Of a stretch of DNA of 64,000 bases, positions 275-9,921 are shown one piece after another (position 1 is the first letter of the stretch; each line of letters opens with the position of its first letter). Below the pieces are notes generated by a model, which was given only the letters and a program-made list of their open reading frames with translations, did not search any database and had not been told where the DNA came from. Position numbers and translations under genes: made by a program. Source of the stretch: Gemmatimonadaceae bacterium (GTDB lineage Bacteria; Gemmatimonadota; Gemmatimonadetes; Gemmatimonadales; Gemmatimonadaceae); the NCBI GenBank assembly GCA_035606695.1, contig DATNEW010000026.1, positions 1 through 64,000 on the forward strand. The letters are read 5' to 3'.

Positions 275-1476
275 GGAAGGTCTGAACTAAGAGTGTTTTT
301 GAACAGCGGAGTCGCGGTCGCGGCGAGATGAGGCAGTGGACAGGCGTCGTGCCGCCGCCGTGTGGAGCGAGCGGCGGTTGCGCCCGCCGGAGCGCCCGTG
401 CGCGACGCTACGAGAGACACGTCGCCGCCCGCGCGCCCAGCCGGTATCGCATCAGGTACAGATTGGCGAGCGCAAACGCGGCGAACGCACGCACGGTGTT
501 CTTGGCCAGGCCTCGGTAGCGCACCTTCATGAAGCCCCAAAGCGTCTTCGCCACGTGGAACGCGTGCTCGCCACGAGCGCGCACCCGCGACCGCGCCCGG
601 TTGATCTGACGCCAGCGCTCCGGAATCGGATGATGCGGCGTGCCGCGCCGATTCACGCGATAGCGAATACCGGCGGCTTCGCACAGCTGCCGATCGCGCT
701 CACTCCAGTACGCCCGGTCGCCGTAGAGCGCGCGTTCTTCGCCGTGCAACAGATGCGGGAGCTGCGAGACATCCATCTGCGCCGCGTCGGTTACGTGCAG
801 TGCGTGCACCAGCCCCTGACGATCGGTTCCCACGTGGACCTTCATCCCGAAATACCACGTCTTTCCCTTCTGCGCCTGCTTCATCTCGGGATCGCGCGTC
901 TTCGTCGCATTCTTCGTCGAGCTCGGCGCGTGGATCATCGTTGCGTCGACAATCGTGCCCGCTTTAAGCACGATACCGCGGGTCCCGAGCAGGTCGTGCA
1001 CCGCGGCGAAGATCGCCTCGGTCAACTGGTGGCGCTCGAGCAGATGTCGGAAGTGGAGAATGGTCGTCTCGTCGGCAAACGCGTCCTCGCCCAGGTCGAC
1101 GCCGACGAAGCGTCGCATCGTCTCACTGTCGTAGAGCGCGTCTTCCGCCGCGGGATCGGAGAGATTGAACCACTGCTGCAGGAAATAGATCCGGAGCATC
1201 CGCTCGAGGGGCATCGGCGGGCGCCCGCGCTTGCCGCCGGTCGGATAGTGTGGGGCGATCAGCGCGGTCAGCGTCGCCCACGGAATCACTGCATTCATCT
1301 CGGCGAGAACCTGCTCGCGGCGGGTGACTTTTTTCTTTCGCGCCCAGGCTTCACCGGCGAACGTCCGCTGCTCTCCCATGACACACGCTCCGCAAAACGA
1401 GTGAGGGCTTCGCTGCGCCAATACCGCAACACGGCCCTCGACACGCAAGAGAAAACGCTATTAAATCAGACTTTCC
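275..1476 (-). mobile_element. IS5-family insertion sequence, apparently complete
   Basis: About 1.2 kb, the usual IS5 size, holding one transposase gene on the minus strand. Imperfect terminal inverted repeats are visible: 275-291 starts GGAAGGTCTGA and the reverse complement of 1460-1476 starts GGAAAGTCTGA (13 of 17 positions match). The flanks are CTAG on the left (271-274) and TTAG on the right (1477-1480), matching the YTAR type of target reported for IS5 and leaving a 3-bp TAG duplication. It sits between the IS630 remnant and the 3' end of a histidine kinase gene, which is intact. Confidence 0.85.
408..1379 (-). CDS. IS5-family transposase
   Basis: A 323-residue DDE transposase that catalyses movement of the surrounding IS. 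It has the N-terminal DUF772-type region (RMLRIYFLQQWFNLSDPAAEDALYDS, here in parts: RMLRIYFLQQWF, then SDPAAEDALYDS) and a DDE_Tnp_1 domain. The first acidic residue is in VDATMI, the second in LYGDRAYW, and the final Glu in RARGEHAFHVAK, part of the Y-R-E-K signature. The start at MGEQRT was chosen because it matches the usual IS5 N-terminus; an upstream in-frame start would add 23 unconvincing residues. It looks intact, so the element may be active. Confidence 0.9.
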   Translation of the reverse strand: MGEQRTFAGEAWARKKKVTRREQVLAEMNAVIPWATLTALIAPHYPTGGKRGRPPMPLERMLRIYFLQQWFNLSDPAAEDALYDSETMRRFVGVDLGEDAFADETTILHFRHLLERHQLTEAIFAAVHDLLGTRGIVLKAGTIVDATMIHAPSSTKNATKTRDPEMKQAQKGKTWYFGMKVHVGTDRQGLVHALHVTDAAQMDVSQLPHLLHGEERALYGDRAYWSERDRQLCEAAGIRYRVNRRGTPHHPIPERWRQINRARSRVRARGEHAFHVAKTLWGFMKVRYRGLAKNTVRAFAAFALANLYLMRYRLGARAATCLS

Positions 1477-4108: not shown

Positions 4109-4909
4109 CAACGATCGCCGTAAGTGTCGTGTCCACGCAGAGACGGCCTTGACGGGCATGATCATCCCTGAGATGAGCGATGCGATCGAATCGCAAAGTG
4201 GCGCAGCGTGAACCTCGGACGCAACTCTGAGAGCATGGTCATCGACGATGGCACAGCCGGATAACCGACGAGCACCGTCGCCGCATAGACGATGGTTCCT
4301 GCGGGCAGTGCTGCTCCGAGGAGCACCTTGATCACGGCGAATCCCGCGGCTGTACTCGACGGTGCGCCTCGCTTCTCCGGGTACGAGCAGCTCTTGGCAA
4401 GCTCGCGCGGCGAAAATGGCAAAGACGAAGCCGGAAGCACGCGGCGCGGAATGCGCCGGGCCACGCGCGCTGTTCTCATTAGACGTCTGTGCAACATAGC
4501 TCGGGCGTCAGAGAGCCCACGGATCACTCCGTGATTCACTCATCGGCCCGAGTGATGCGGCTCTCTCTCGCGCACATGTACCTACGTCGTAGATGCATTG
4601 AGGCGTGGCCGATCTGCATCTCGAGCGAGAACCGACGAAGGCGCGCGCCAACATGAAGACGCACGGCATCAGGTTCGATGAGGCCGAGACCGCCTGCTAC
4701 GATGACTACGCGGTCGCTTTTTGAGGATGGAATGGGACGCACGAGACGGTGGCCGCGTCGCCCTGGCCTCCGTTGACGCGAAATGAACCGTTGCACATCG
4801 CTGTCCGGCGCGCTATGGTTTGATCAACTCTCCATATCTCGTGATCACACACCGCACTGACTCAGACGCTCGGTCTTCCCTGACCGCGACCCGCCTCCAC
4901 GGCGGGACG

Positions 4910-5008
4910 GTGTGTTGTCGTGCCGCGCAGAGCGCCGCGTGTTGTTGTTGTTGCGCGGTCCTCTGTTCCGTATCCGCCACGCGGCCGACGAGCAGCCATA
5001 CGCCCTAG
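4910..5008 (+). CDS. Cys-rich leader peptide of the sulfite/cysteine operon
   Basis: A putative 32-residue leader peptide starting at GTG 4910: MCCRAAQSAACCCCCAVLCS, then VSATRPTSSHTP, stop at 5006-5008. Eight of 32 residues are Cys, with five consecutive Cys codons (TGT four times, then TGC) at 4940-4954. It ends about 100 bp before an operon for sulfite reduction and cysteine synthesis and is interleaved with mutually exclusive RNA hairpins (see attenuator). GTG has a GGCGGGA stretch just upstream with poor spacing; the frame is also open from TTG 4820, so the exact start is uncertain. An alternative frame would read a Leu run, but the context favours Cys. Confidence 0.65.
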   Translation: MCCRAAQSAACCCCCAVLCSVSATRPTSSHTP

Positions 5009-5070
5009 CGTAGGCTCGCATCGCAAGAAGAGCACACTCTCGGCCGCTCCCACGAGCGGCCGTTGTGTTT
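4934..5070 (+). promoter_or_regulatory. Cysteine-responsive transcription attenuator (predicted)
   Basis: Four segments give three alternative perfect 8-bp stems. Segment 1 (4934-4941, GCCGCGTG) pairs with segment 2 (4978-4985, CACGCGGC). Segment 2 (4981-4988, GCGGCCGA) also pairs with segment 3 (5040-5047, TCGGCCGC). Segment 3 (5041-5048) pairs with segment 4 (5055-5062) to form the terminator. The Cys codon run begins inside segment 1. A ribosome stalled for lack of Cys-tRNA would cover segment 1 and free segment 2 to form the 2:3 antiterminator. With ample cysteine, 1:2 and 3:4 form and transcription stops. This is the logic of the trp/his attenuators, inferred here from base pairing. Confidence 0.7.
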
Positions 5071-5072
5071 CT
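5041..5072 (+). terminator. Attenuator terminator hairpin
   Basis: CGGCCGCT, 6-nt loop CCCACG, AGCGGCCG, followed by the T-rich tail TTGTGTTTCT; all-but-two GC stem of 8 bp. Lies 45 bp before the first structural gene of the operon. Confidence 0.7.
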
Positions 5073-5106
5073 GGTCGCTCTTCAACGACATCCTCGCGAG
5101 GCCCAC

Positions 5107-6003
5107 ATGTCACGATCGCTGCACGGAATCACGGTTGCCCACTTCGAGGCGCGACACGAGGCAGAGCTGAACGGTTTGATCGCGCGCCACGGCGGAGTAC
5201 CGCGTGCGGCGCCGGCGCTCTCGGAGACTCCGATCGCCGCGGGAGAAAAAGAGCTCGCGGTGTTCGACGGGCTGGCGTCAGGCGCCTTCGACGTCGTCGT
5301 CCTGCTGACCGGCGGCGGAACGAGGCGACTCTTCGAGGAGGCGGCGCGCGCATGGCGCCTCGGCGCCGTGATGTCGGCGCTGCGTCGCGTGACCGTCGTC
5401 GCGCGCGGACCAAAGCCGGTGCCGGTGCTCCGCGAGCACCAACTCAGGGCCACGCATGTCGCGCCGGCGCCGCACACGTCGAGCGAGCTCCTCGCCACGC
5501 TCGAGACGATTCCCGTCGCGGGCCGGCGTGTTCTCGTCGTCAACGCCGGCGAGCCGCTCGAAGAGCCGTCGGGTTCGCTCCGCGTTCGTGGCGCGGACGT
5601 CGTCGAGCTACAGCTCTACGCGTGGACGCTGTTGCCGACGGATGCGGGCCGAATCGATGAATTGATCCGTGAGATCGTCGCGGCCAGAATCGACGCGGTG
5701 CTGTTCACGACGCAGGTCCAGGTCCGCCACGTCTTCGAGGTCGCGGCGCGGCGCGGCATGCGCGAGGCACTTCTGTCCGCGCTGCGCGAGCATGTGCTCA
5801 TCGGCGCGGTCGGTCCGACCGTCGCGCACGCACTCGCGCAACTCGGGCTCGATGCCGACGTCGTGCCGGACCATCCGAAAATGGGTCAGCTCGTCGTCGC
5901 GCTCGCCGATCACGTTACCACGCGTGCGCCGCGCGAAGCCCGCAAAGCGGAGCCGATTGTCGATTACGTCCAGGCCGTGTTGAGCGGACGAGGAGGCTTC
6001 TGA
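5107..6003 (+). CDS. hemD: Uroporphyrinogen-III synthase family protein (HemD)
   Basis: 298-residue two-lobed HemD-type protein, cyclising hydroxymethylbilane to uroporphyrinogen III, the precursor of siroheme and heme. Typical segments are FDVVVLLTGGGTRRLFEEA in the first lobe and the repeat-like RIDAVLFTTQVQVRHVFEVA and IGAVGPTVAHALAQLGLDAD in the second. The family is poorly conserved in sequence, so the call rests on this pattern and length. It is the first gene of an operon and its stop overlaps the ATG of the cysteine synthase (TGATG). Siroheme supply for the reductase two genes later explains its place. The start follows GCGAGG by 5 nt. Confidence 0.8.
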   Translation: MSRSLHGITVAHFEARHEAELNGLIARHGGVPRAAPALSETPIAAGEKELAVFDGLASGAFDVVVLLTGGGTRRLFEEAARAWRLGAVMSALRRVTVVARGPKPVPVLREHQLRATHVAPAPHTSSELLATLETIPVAGRRVLVVNAGEPLEEPSGSLRVRGADVVELQLYAWTLLPTDAGRIDELIREIVAARIDAVLFTTQVQVRHVFEVAARRGMREALLSALREHVLIGAVGPTVAHALAQLGLDADVVPDHPKMGQLVVALADHVTTRAPREARKAEPIVDYVQAVLSGRGGF

Positions 6004-6970
6004 TGCCGGCGACATTAGGGATCTCTAAAGTCGCGCTCGCGCGGCAGCTCGGCGCCGGCTACGGCATCGACGCAACCATCGGACGAACGCCGGTCGTGAA
6101 GCTCGATCGCGTCGTCGAGCCCGACATGGCCGAGGTTTGGGTGAAGCTCGAGGGGATGCAGCCCGCCGGCTCGATCAAGGATCGTACGGCGCTGGGCATG
6201 ATCGTCGATGCCGAGCAGCGCGGCATCCTGCGTCCTGGCCACTCGATCGTCGAGCCCACGTCCGGCAATACCGGAATTGGACTTGCCCAGGTCGCCGCGG
6301 CGCGTGGGTATCAGCTCACGCTCTGCTTGCCGGCACAGATGAGCGATGAACGCAAGCGAACGCTTCTCGCCTTCGGAGCGAAGCTCGTGCTCACGGATCC
6401 CGAGCGTCGAATGCTCGCGGCCATCGAAGAGGCCGAGCGGATTGCGGCGGAGACTGGCGCATGGATGCCGAATCAGTTCTCGAATCCGGCGAACCCGCGC
6501 GTGCACTACGAGACGACGGGTCCCGAGCTGTGGGCCCAGATGAACGGGCGAATCGACGCCTTCGTGTACGGATCCGGCACCGGCGGCACGATCAGCGGCG
6601 TCGGCCGCTTTCTCAAGGAGCAATTCGCCGACACGCTCGTTGTCGCGGTCGAGCCGGCGCGATCGCCCGTTCTCTCCGGTGGCGAGCGCGGACAACACCA
6701 GTTCCAGGGCATGGGTCCCGGGTTCATTCCGGCGAATCTCGATCGCACCGTGATCGACCGCGTCGTGCAGGCGTGGGAGGAAGATGCCTTTCCGCTCGCG
6801 CGTCGACTGGCACGCGATGAAGGATTATTCGTCGGCATGTCGAGCGGCGCGATCGTCTGGGCGGCGCTCGAGATTGCGCGCGAGCTTGGGCGCGGGCATC
6901 GCGTGGCCGCGATCGCTCCCGATTCGGGCGCGCGGTATCTCACGACGGCATTGTTCGCGGAGACCCAGCC

Positions 6971-6974
<4 letters not shown>
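6003..6974 (+). CDS. cysK: Cysteine synthase (O-acetylserine sulfhydrylase)
   Basis: 323-residue PLP enzyme of fold type II that joins sulfide and O-acetylserine into cysteine. The PLP lysine is in PAGSIKDRTALGMI (about residue 59), the substrate loop is EPTSGNTGIGLAQVAAARGY, and the phosphate-binding loop is GSGTGGTISGVGRFLKE. PTSGNTG favours CysK over CysM (usually ATSGNTG), though thiocysteine or O-phosphoserine synthase activity cannot be excluded. One-base overlap with hemD and a 4-base ATGA overlap with the downstream reductase indicate translational coupling. Under the predicted Cys attenuator it would be made when cysteine is short. Confidence 0.92.
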
Positions 6975-9246
<2,272 letters not shown>

Positions 9247-9250
<4 letters not shown>

Positions 9251-9921
9251 ATAGTCTAAACAATGTGAATGATGTGAATAATGTGCATGGGACGAACGGC
9301 GCGAGCCGTGTGAATCATGGAAGACCCGTCGGGCGCGTATGTGCGAAGATCTACTCGCCGAATGCGGCGTTTCCCGACGAACGGTTGGTTCCGATCTTCC
9401 AGCAGTGGATTCGCGACGGGGCGTTCGCCGGCGTGCTTCTCGACGTTGCGGATTACACGCATGTGCCGGATGGTCCGGGTGTCGTGCTCGTAGGACACGA
9501 GACGACGTTTTCGATGGATCGATCGGATGGGCGGTTGGGGCTCGTGGCGCAGCATCGGCGGCCGTTCGCTCGGGATACTGGTGATGCTGGCGACGGCGGT
9601 GATGCCAGTGGTGGTGTGGTTGCCACGCTTCAGGCGTTGTTCGACGTCGCCGATGAGCTCGAGCGCGCGATGGTCGACGCCGATGTTCGTCTCGACCGGA
9701 CGCGAATCCGGGTTGAGAGCAACGATCGGTTGCGGGCACCGAATACGGATGCGGGGTTCGCGAGCTTCGCGCCGGTGATTGCCGAGGCGGCGCGGCGGGT
9801 GATGGGTGGCGGGGAGGTTGTGGTCGAGCGTGTGGCGAATGATCGGCGGGAGCGGCTGGCGGTGGATGTGTGGGTGGTGGGATCGGCGAACCTGCCGCTT
9901 GACCAGGACGTTGGGTGGTAA
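9247..9921 (+). CDS. Conserved unknown protein of the sulfite reductase operon
   Basis: 224 residues, no enzymatic motif. After a low-complexity N-terminus (NSLNNVNDVNNVHG) comes a well-formed domain: KIYSPNAAFPDERLVPIFQQ, DVADYTHVPDGPGVVLVGHE, GLVAQHRRPFA, then LQALFDVADELE and ESNDRLRAPNTDAGF. I recall proteins of this form beside siroheme reductases in other bacteria, without a known role. The ATGA overlap with the reductase makes a functional tie likely, perhaps an accessory or electron-transfer partner. The Asn-rich start comes from a degenerate GTGAATAAT-like DNA repeat, so translation may really begin further in. Confidence 0.75.

Follow-up and report, generated by a model that had tools for sequence, protein, structure and literature searches.

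In the trp and his attenuators of enterobacteria, a short leader ORF carries codons for the amino acid of the operon, and the 3:4 terminator competes with an alternative 2:3 antiterminator of comparable stability. The polycysteine leaders of mycobacteria and other Actinobacteria contain runs of Cys codons in a short ORF before cys operons, and cysteine-responsive attenuation at the mycobacterial leaders is credited to Canestrari et al. (2020) in PMC9094748 and PMC13236596. A survey of premature terminators in 2010 stated that leader peptides had previously been found only in Proteobacteria and Actinobacteria and added the Firmicutes, where histidine leader peptides belong to hisS and hisZ (PMC2965389).

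In our study, a cysteine leader was examined in a window of 64,000 nucleotides (the whole stretch of DNA analysed) from a Gemmatimonadaceae bacterium. Like the trp and his attenuators, it contained a short leader ORF that repeatedly encodes the amino acid of its operon, a 3:4 terminator and a 2:3 antiterminator of comparable stability. As in the Actinobacteria, the Cys run was present in a short ORF before sulfur genes, and several of the Gemmatimonadota leaders are probably leaderless. As in the Firmicutes, the attenuation would be of the terminator type and outside Proteobacteria and Actinobacteria. The region 4790-5106 is very probably a ribosome-controlled transcription attenuator of the terminator type that senses charged Cys-tRNA, and the core of the original prediction, attenuation by cysteine, was supported. 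This reading draws on sequence and comparison: an open frame holds the Cys codons, a terminator follows it, the 2:3 pairing competes with that terminator and co-varies, and sulfur genes are linked to the leader.

Leader frame and cysteine codons

The following features were found in the 5' part of the region:

4791 to 4819, + strand: candidate promoter TTGCAC-17-TATGGT, the top match of a weighted scan (chance 0.07), weak
4841 to 5008, + strand: leader ORF in its longer form, 55 codons in an open frame, with a putative start at GTG 4841 and a stop at TAG 5006
From GTG 4910, + strand: leader ORF in its shorter form, with the same frame and stop
4940 to 4966, + strand: putative regulatory Cys codons in the sequence, five adjacent (4940-4954) plus another at 4964-4966; 44 other loci have Cys-rich leaders in this position

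The frame from 4910 to 5008 (+) is translated as VCCRAAQSAACCCCCAVLCSVSATRPTSSHTP followed by the stop, with eight Cys among its 32 codons. Four TGT codons and one TGC codon were adjacent at 4940-4954, and all coordinates given in the original prediction for this run and for the eight Cys in 32 residues were verified. The predicted frame and its Cys content held as well, with an uncertain start codon in a frame that was open further upstream. Translation of the leader may begin at GTG 4841, and GTG 4910 may be internal, since GTG 4841, located 21 nt past the -10 box of the candidate promoter, fits the nearest promoter-like site better. A stricter consensus scan gave no promoter for the window leader. 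The -10 sequence TATGGT was also present in one relative (L090), there behind TTGACT. The last Cys codon (4964-4966) ended about 40 nt 5' of the stop codon at 5006.

RNA segments of the leader

The leader RNA contained the following segments and hairpins:

4934 to 4941, + strand: segment 1 of the original prediction, pairing with 4978-4985 over exactly 8 bp; p 0.56 against shuffles, not kept in the closest subgroup
4980 to 4988, + strand: segment 2, 5' strand of the antiterminator, pairing with 5040-5047; p 0.02; part of the consensus helix from 10 relatives, in which compensatory pairs occur
4989 to 5023, + strand: hairpin within the antiterminator loop that holds the stop codon, in the fold before segment 4 exists; z -3.9
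5029 to 5040, + strand: small hairpin immediately 5' of the terminator, from folding; similar ones in most subgroup members, individually not significant
5040 to 5049, + strand: segment 3, 3' strand of the antiterminator and 5' strand of the terminator, from folding, the shuffle test and the consensus helix
5054 to 5070, + strand: segment 4 of the intrinsic terminator and its U-rich tail, with a 9-bp stem, z -3.9 and a match in the terminator scan

Three exact 8-bp pairings were found (4934-4941 with 4978-4985, 4981-4988 with 5040-5047, and 5041-5048 with 5055-5062), which are mutually exclusive because they share bases. The original prediction had described these three stems, the last of them as a terminator with a T-rich tail, exactly to the base. 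The terminator stem is actually 9 bp long (5041-5049 with 5054-5062), the dG of the terminator region was -24.4 with a z of -3.9, and the leader RNA was structured overall (z -3.5). The fold before segment 4 was a three-way junction closed by the 2:3 pairing, followed by the terminator once segment 4 was included. The small hairpins of the 5029-5040 type differed in the sequence of their arms among subgroup members; they might serve in pausing or stacking.

Segment 1 had also been proposed as a functional part. Its pairing is perfect, yet its place was not conserved in the closest relatives, and a match of this quality (p 0.56) is expected by chance because the leader is G+C-rich. A free duplex search for segment 1 across the units described below gave no signal (combined p 0.23). 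The protector hairpin 1:2 was at chance level and not conserved in the window. When the search was confined to the position directly 3' of the Cys run, a hairpin was found in other subgroups, with some covariation, and not in that of the window.

Genes behind the leader

Four genes on the same strand were found behind the leader:

5107 to 6003, + strand: hemD, uroporphyrinogen-III synthase (PF02602, 2e-34)
6003 to 6974, + strand: cysK-like PLP-dependent cysteine synthase (PF00291, 5e-71)
6971 to 9250, + strand: sulfite reductase of 759 aa (PF01077 and PF03460), with 71-73% identity to proteins in five Gemmatimonadota MAGs
9247 to 9921, + strand: protein neighbouring this type of sulfite reductase, no Pfam match; the neighbour is 44-48% identical in five MAGs and 31% in a sixth

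The Pfam matches agreed with the operon of HemD, CysK and sulfite reductase that had been claimed, and the genes under control would make the sensed amino acid. A transposase-like ORF with an IS5-like look from its translation was present at 408-1448 (-), a few kb 5' of the operon.

The sulfite reductase of the window differed in type from those of the two genus-mates that possess one (G002 and G005), with about 35% identity to them and 72% to those of more distant members of the phylum. The leader of the window resembled that of the genus-mate G002, including CGGCCG as in-frame Arg-Pro codons. The enzyme was probably exchanged behind a native attenuator that was kept. In most members of the subgroup (window, L078, L080, L081, L082, L083, and L240), the segment 2 codons CGG CCG (Arg-Pro) were located in the leader frame shortly 5' of the stop codon.

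Cysteine leaders across Gemmatimonadota

Sixty-five regions around sulfite reductase genes were collected from Gemmatimonadota genomes by protein search, and leaders were not considered in the choice; hemD was too divergent to serve as a probe for relatives. Up to about 6 kb upstream was taken per region, and many of the genomes were draft assemblies. Promoters and terminators were scored by simple rules. We found 46 units, each made up of a short ORF rich in Cys, then a strong terminator and then a gene of sulfur assimilation, in 44 of the 65 regions and the window. Cys runs in the leaders of orthologues, on which the original prediction had depended, were present in these 44 regions and the window. 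A looser look raised the number to about 51 of the 65 regions, adding L081, L086, L087, L129, L177, L180, and L181; L129 contained a Cys leader and no clear terminator. About 14 of the 65 regions were without a unit, some owing to contig ends.

The genes behind the leaders, identified by Pfam or protein match, encoded three types of sulfite reductase, PAPS reductase, APS kinase, a CysN-APS kinase fusion, cysteine synthase, siroheme synthase, a TauE-type exporter, and rhodanese. The leaders go with the sulfur assimilation pathway in general and not with a single gene family. Novelty had been claimed for one Gemmatimonadota-like genome; this statement was too narrow, the arrangement not being peculiar to that genome and being spread over the phylum. 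No report of a Gemmatimonadota cysteine leader was found in the literature searched.

By the same simple scoring, TTGACA-like promoters were present upstream of most units. In 19 units the first in-frame start codon was located 6-10 nt past the -10 box, so that the leader ORF would begin at or beside the first RNA base, and many of the relatives' leaders appear to be leaderless. Two different Cys leaders in tandem, both equipped with a terminator-like hairpin of their own, were found at L179:5097-5542 (-), L180:4107-4560 (+), and L182:2973-3540 (+) in the genomes G447, G419, and G407, respectively; a TauE/SafE-type exporter was present behind them in G447 and G407.

A structure-only search that ignored the Cys codons was performed in 177 genomes of the family, with segments 2, 3, and 4 as spaced DNA words. 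It returned ten rows from nine places in eight genomes, and none for the reversed-pattern control. Six of the places were leaders before sulfur operons, the window included, and the three new ones were located upstream of rhodanese genes with 2 to 12 Cys codons in the leader; thus all nine contained Cys codons in the leader and sulfur genes behind it. The window's own genome contained a second candidate Cys attenuator (contig C26, 304768-304856) with 12 Cys codons before a rhodanese-type sulfurtransferase. This second unit corresponds to L240:1350-1640 (contig C26, about 304600-304890), and the same arrangement was found in G005 and G091.

Covariation of the antiterminator pairing

In each unit, the stretch from the last Cys codon to the terminator was searched for its best pairing with the 5' arm of the terminator. 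Compared with shuffles of the stretch, the best pairings gave a Fisher combined p of 1.5e-16 (0.02 for the window alone). This and the other sequence-level tests are inflated by the kinship of units within subgroups, for which the statistics correct incompletely, and segment 2 was by design the best duplex found. The cognate 2:3 pairings were better than pairings with non-cognate arms among the 46 units (permutation p 5e-5), and also after the units were merged into 16 subgroups (p 1e-5). The stems were wholly different among subgroups (for example CGGCCG, GAGAGCGG, GGGAAGCGG, and AATTCGCGGCC), with the pairing kept within each unit.

The RNAalifold consensus of the segment 2-3 region in ten units of the window's subgroup was exactly the 2:3 helix. 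A compensatory change was found in the window, where an A-U pair is present in place of the G-C pair of other subgroup members. The compensating base changes in orthologues that had been looked for were therefore found, in this A-U pair and in the covariation of the 2:3 pairing (p ~1e-5). The stretch from segment 2 to segment 3 folded with 2:3 closed in 44 of the 46 units, a count that is to some extent a product of the method, in which the best partner was taken as segment 2. As MAFFT put some stems wrong in longer alignments, we relied on the cognate and non-cognate pairings and on the short alignment A3. The antiterminator pairing that excludes the terminator is under selection.

Proposed mechanism and alternative explanations

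The proposed mechanism adds a putative promoter, translation, stalling, a direction of response and a block on the pairing of segment 2 when cysteine is ample. RNA polymerase would start near 4826 and a ribosome would translate the leader. Under a shortage of Cys-tRNA, the ribosome would stall on 4940-4966 and segment 2 (4980-4988), lying just ahead, would stay free; on pairing with the emerging segment 3 (5040-5048), it would block the terminator, and hemD, cysK and the sulfite reductase gene would be transcribed. When Cys-tRNA is plentiful, the ribosome would read on through segment 2 and approach the stop codon at 5006; that segment would be covered or paired upstream, and 5041-5062 would fold as an intrinsic terminator. 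By our estimate, the front edge of the stalled ribosome lies near 4965-4977 (about 16 nt beyond the P site), which leaves segment 2 just beyond it. In the family as a whole, the usual distance from the last Cys codon to the start of segment 2 was 5-15 nt, a placement just ahead of the stalled ribosome that would expose the antiterminator during stalling.

The off-state is explained incompletely, because segment 1 of the window is at chance level and a ribosome at the stop codon would, by our estimate from the size of its footprint, scarcely reach segment 2. The stop codon was located 1-16 nt past segment 2 in the window and in most of the relatives closest to it, and within segment 2 in another subgroup. 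In one large subgroup, a hairpin directly 3' of the Cys run is predicted to be masked by the stalled ribosome and otherwise free. In the window, segment 1 of the original prediction would act as such a competing hairpin. Published models of the trp and his leaders give two routes to an off-state, a stop codon placed late and a hairpin that competes (PMC1183508).

It might be argued that the terminator just ends upstream transcription and that the run of Cys codons arose by chance in DNA rich in G+C. Four consecutive TGY codons were indeed common in the window's genome (111 sites, against 137 for the reversed pattern), so that the Cys run alone is unconvincing, and a genome-wide search by the Cys-codon pattern alone was rejected as useless. 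What is beyond chance is the combination of Cys leader, terminator and sulfur gene, which recurred in 44 other loci. In the regions chosen only for sulfite reductase, a strong terminator was present 3' of 30 of 49 short CCC ORFs (61%), against 7 of 378 AAA, 12 of 905 RRR, none of 536 SSS, and 7 of 191 GGG frames in the same DNA; the rate was 0-4% for the Ala, Arg, Ser, Gly, and Pro control frames. Leu frames were somewhat raised (9 of 75), as expected because TTG repeats are another frame of TGT repeats. Since moreover no + strand gene was evident just upstream of 4800, we regard a chance run as very improbable. Among the short HHH frames, 5 of 13 were followed by a terminator; these could be other leaders.

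Control by cysteine through hemD translation or Rho instead of intrinsic termination would follow the polycysteine leaders of mycobacteria, where Cys runs occur with no conserved terminator hairpin (PMC1262725), and many leaders here seemingly begin at or beside the transcription start, as do the mycobacterial ones called leaderless in a title cited in PMC9094748. This explanation is unlikely, as in 46 units the leader is separated from the first gene by a strong hairpin with a T tail, covariation links this hairpin to the upstream segment, and the terminator hairpin of the window does not touch the hemD start (5107). The structured leader RNA (z -3.5) might also suggest a metabolite riboswitch, a T-box or a protein-bound leader with an incidental Cys frame. 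The riboswitch and T-box covariance models of Rfam at gathering score gave no match in the window or in the loci of 12 relatives, and no Rfam family was found there beyond chance-level matches at a relaxed threshold. There was no conserved unpaired core, the stems changed between subgroups and the Cys codons stayed, all of which makes such a sensor extremely improbable.

Comparison with known attenuators

It is somewhat more probable than not that the Gemmatimonadota possess a phylum-wide cysteine regulon that is controlled largely by leader-peptide attenuators, with stems rewritten in each subgroup, Cys codons and pairing logic kept, many leaders leaderless, some in tandem, and the unit inherited while the enzyme was exchanged. 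If true, this would be, to our knowledge, the first terminator-type attenuator family described for cysteine and for the phylum; cysteine is not usually counted with the amino acids known for leader attenuation of the terminator type. For a phylum in which genetic tools are scarce, this would provide a predictable, testable cysteine sensor and a route to annotating its sulfur regulon. The subgroups with their own stems are a natural series for studying which attenuator parts are needed (segment 1, the position of the stop codon, the leaderless start, and the tandem copies).

Of the features that define the trp and his type, the window contained a cluster of Cys codons, an intrinsic terminator before the first gene (5041-5070), an antiterminator, and sulfur genes. 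It differs from the trp and his attenuators in the amino acid (cysteine) and the phylum, in that a 1:2 hairpin is not evident in the window's subgroup and the stop codon falls within the loop of the antiterminator, and in that many Gemmatimonadota relatives are seemingly leaderless at their start. The actinobacterial leaders have no conserved terminator hairpin (PMC1262725), whereas those of Gemmatimonadota as a rule have an intrinsic terminator and an antiterminator that co-varies with it; the Cys run lies near the stop codon in the former and about 40 nt from it in the window. The hisS and hisZ leaders of Firmicutes differ in amino acid, genes, and phylum. The class of mechanism is thus old, and what is new is the use of cysteine with an intrinsic terminator, the spread over the phylum, the tandem copies, and the frequent, apparently leaderless start.
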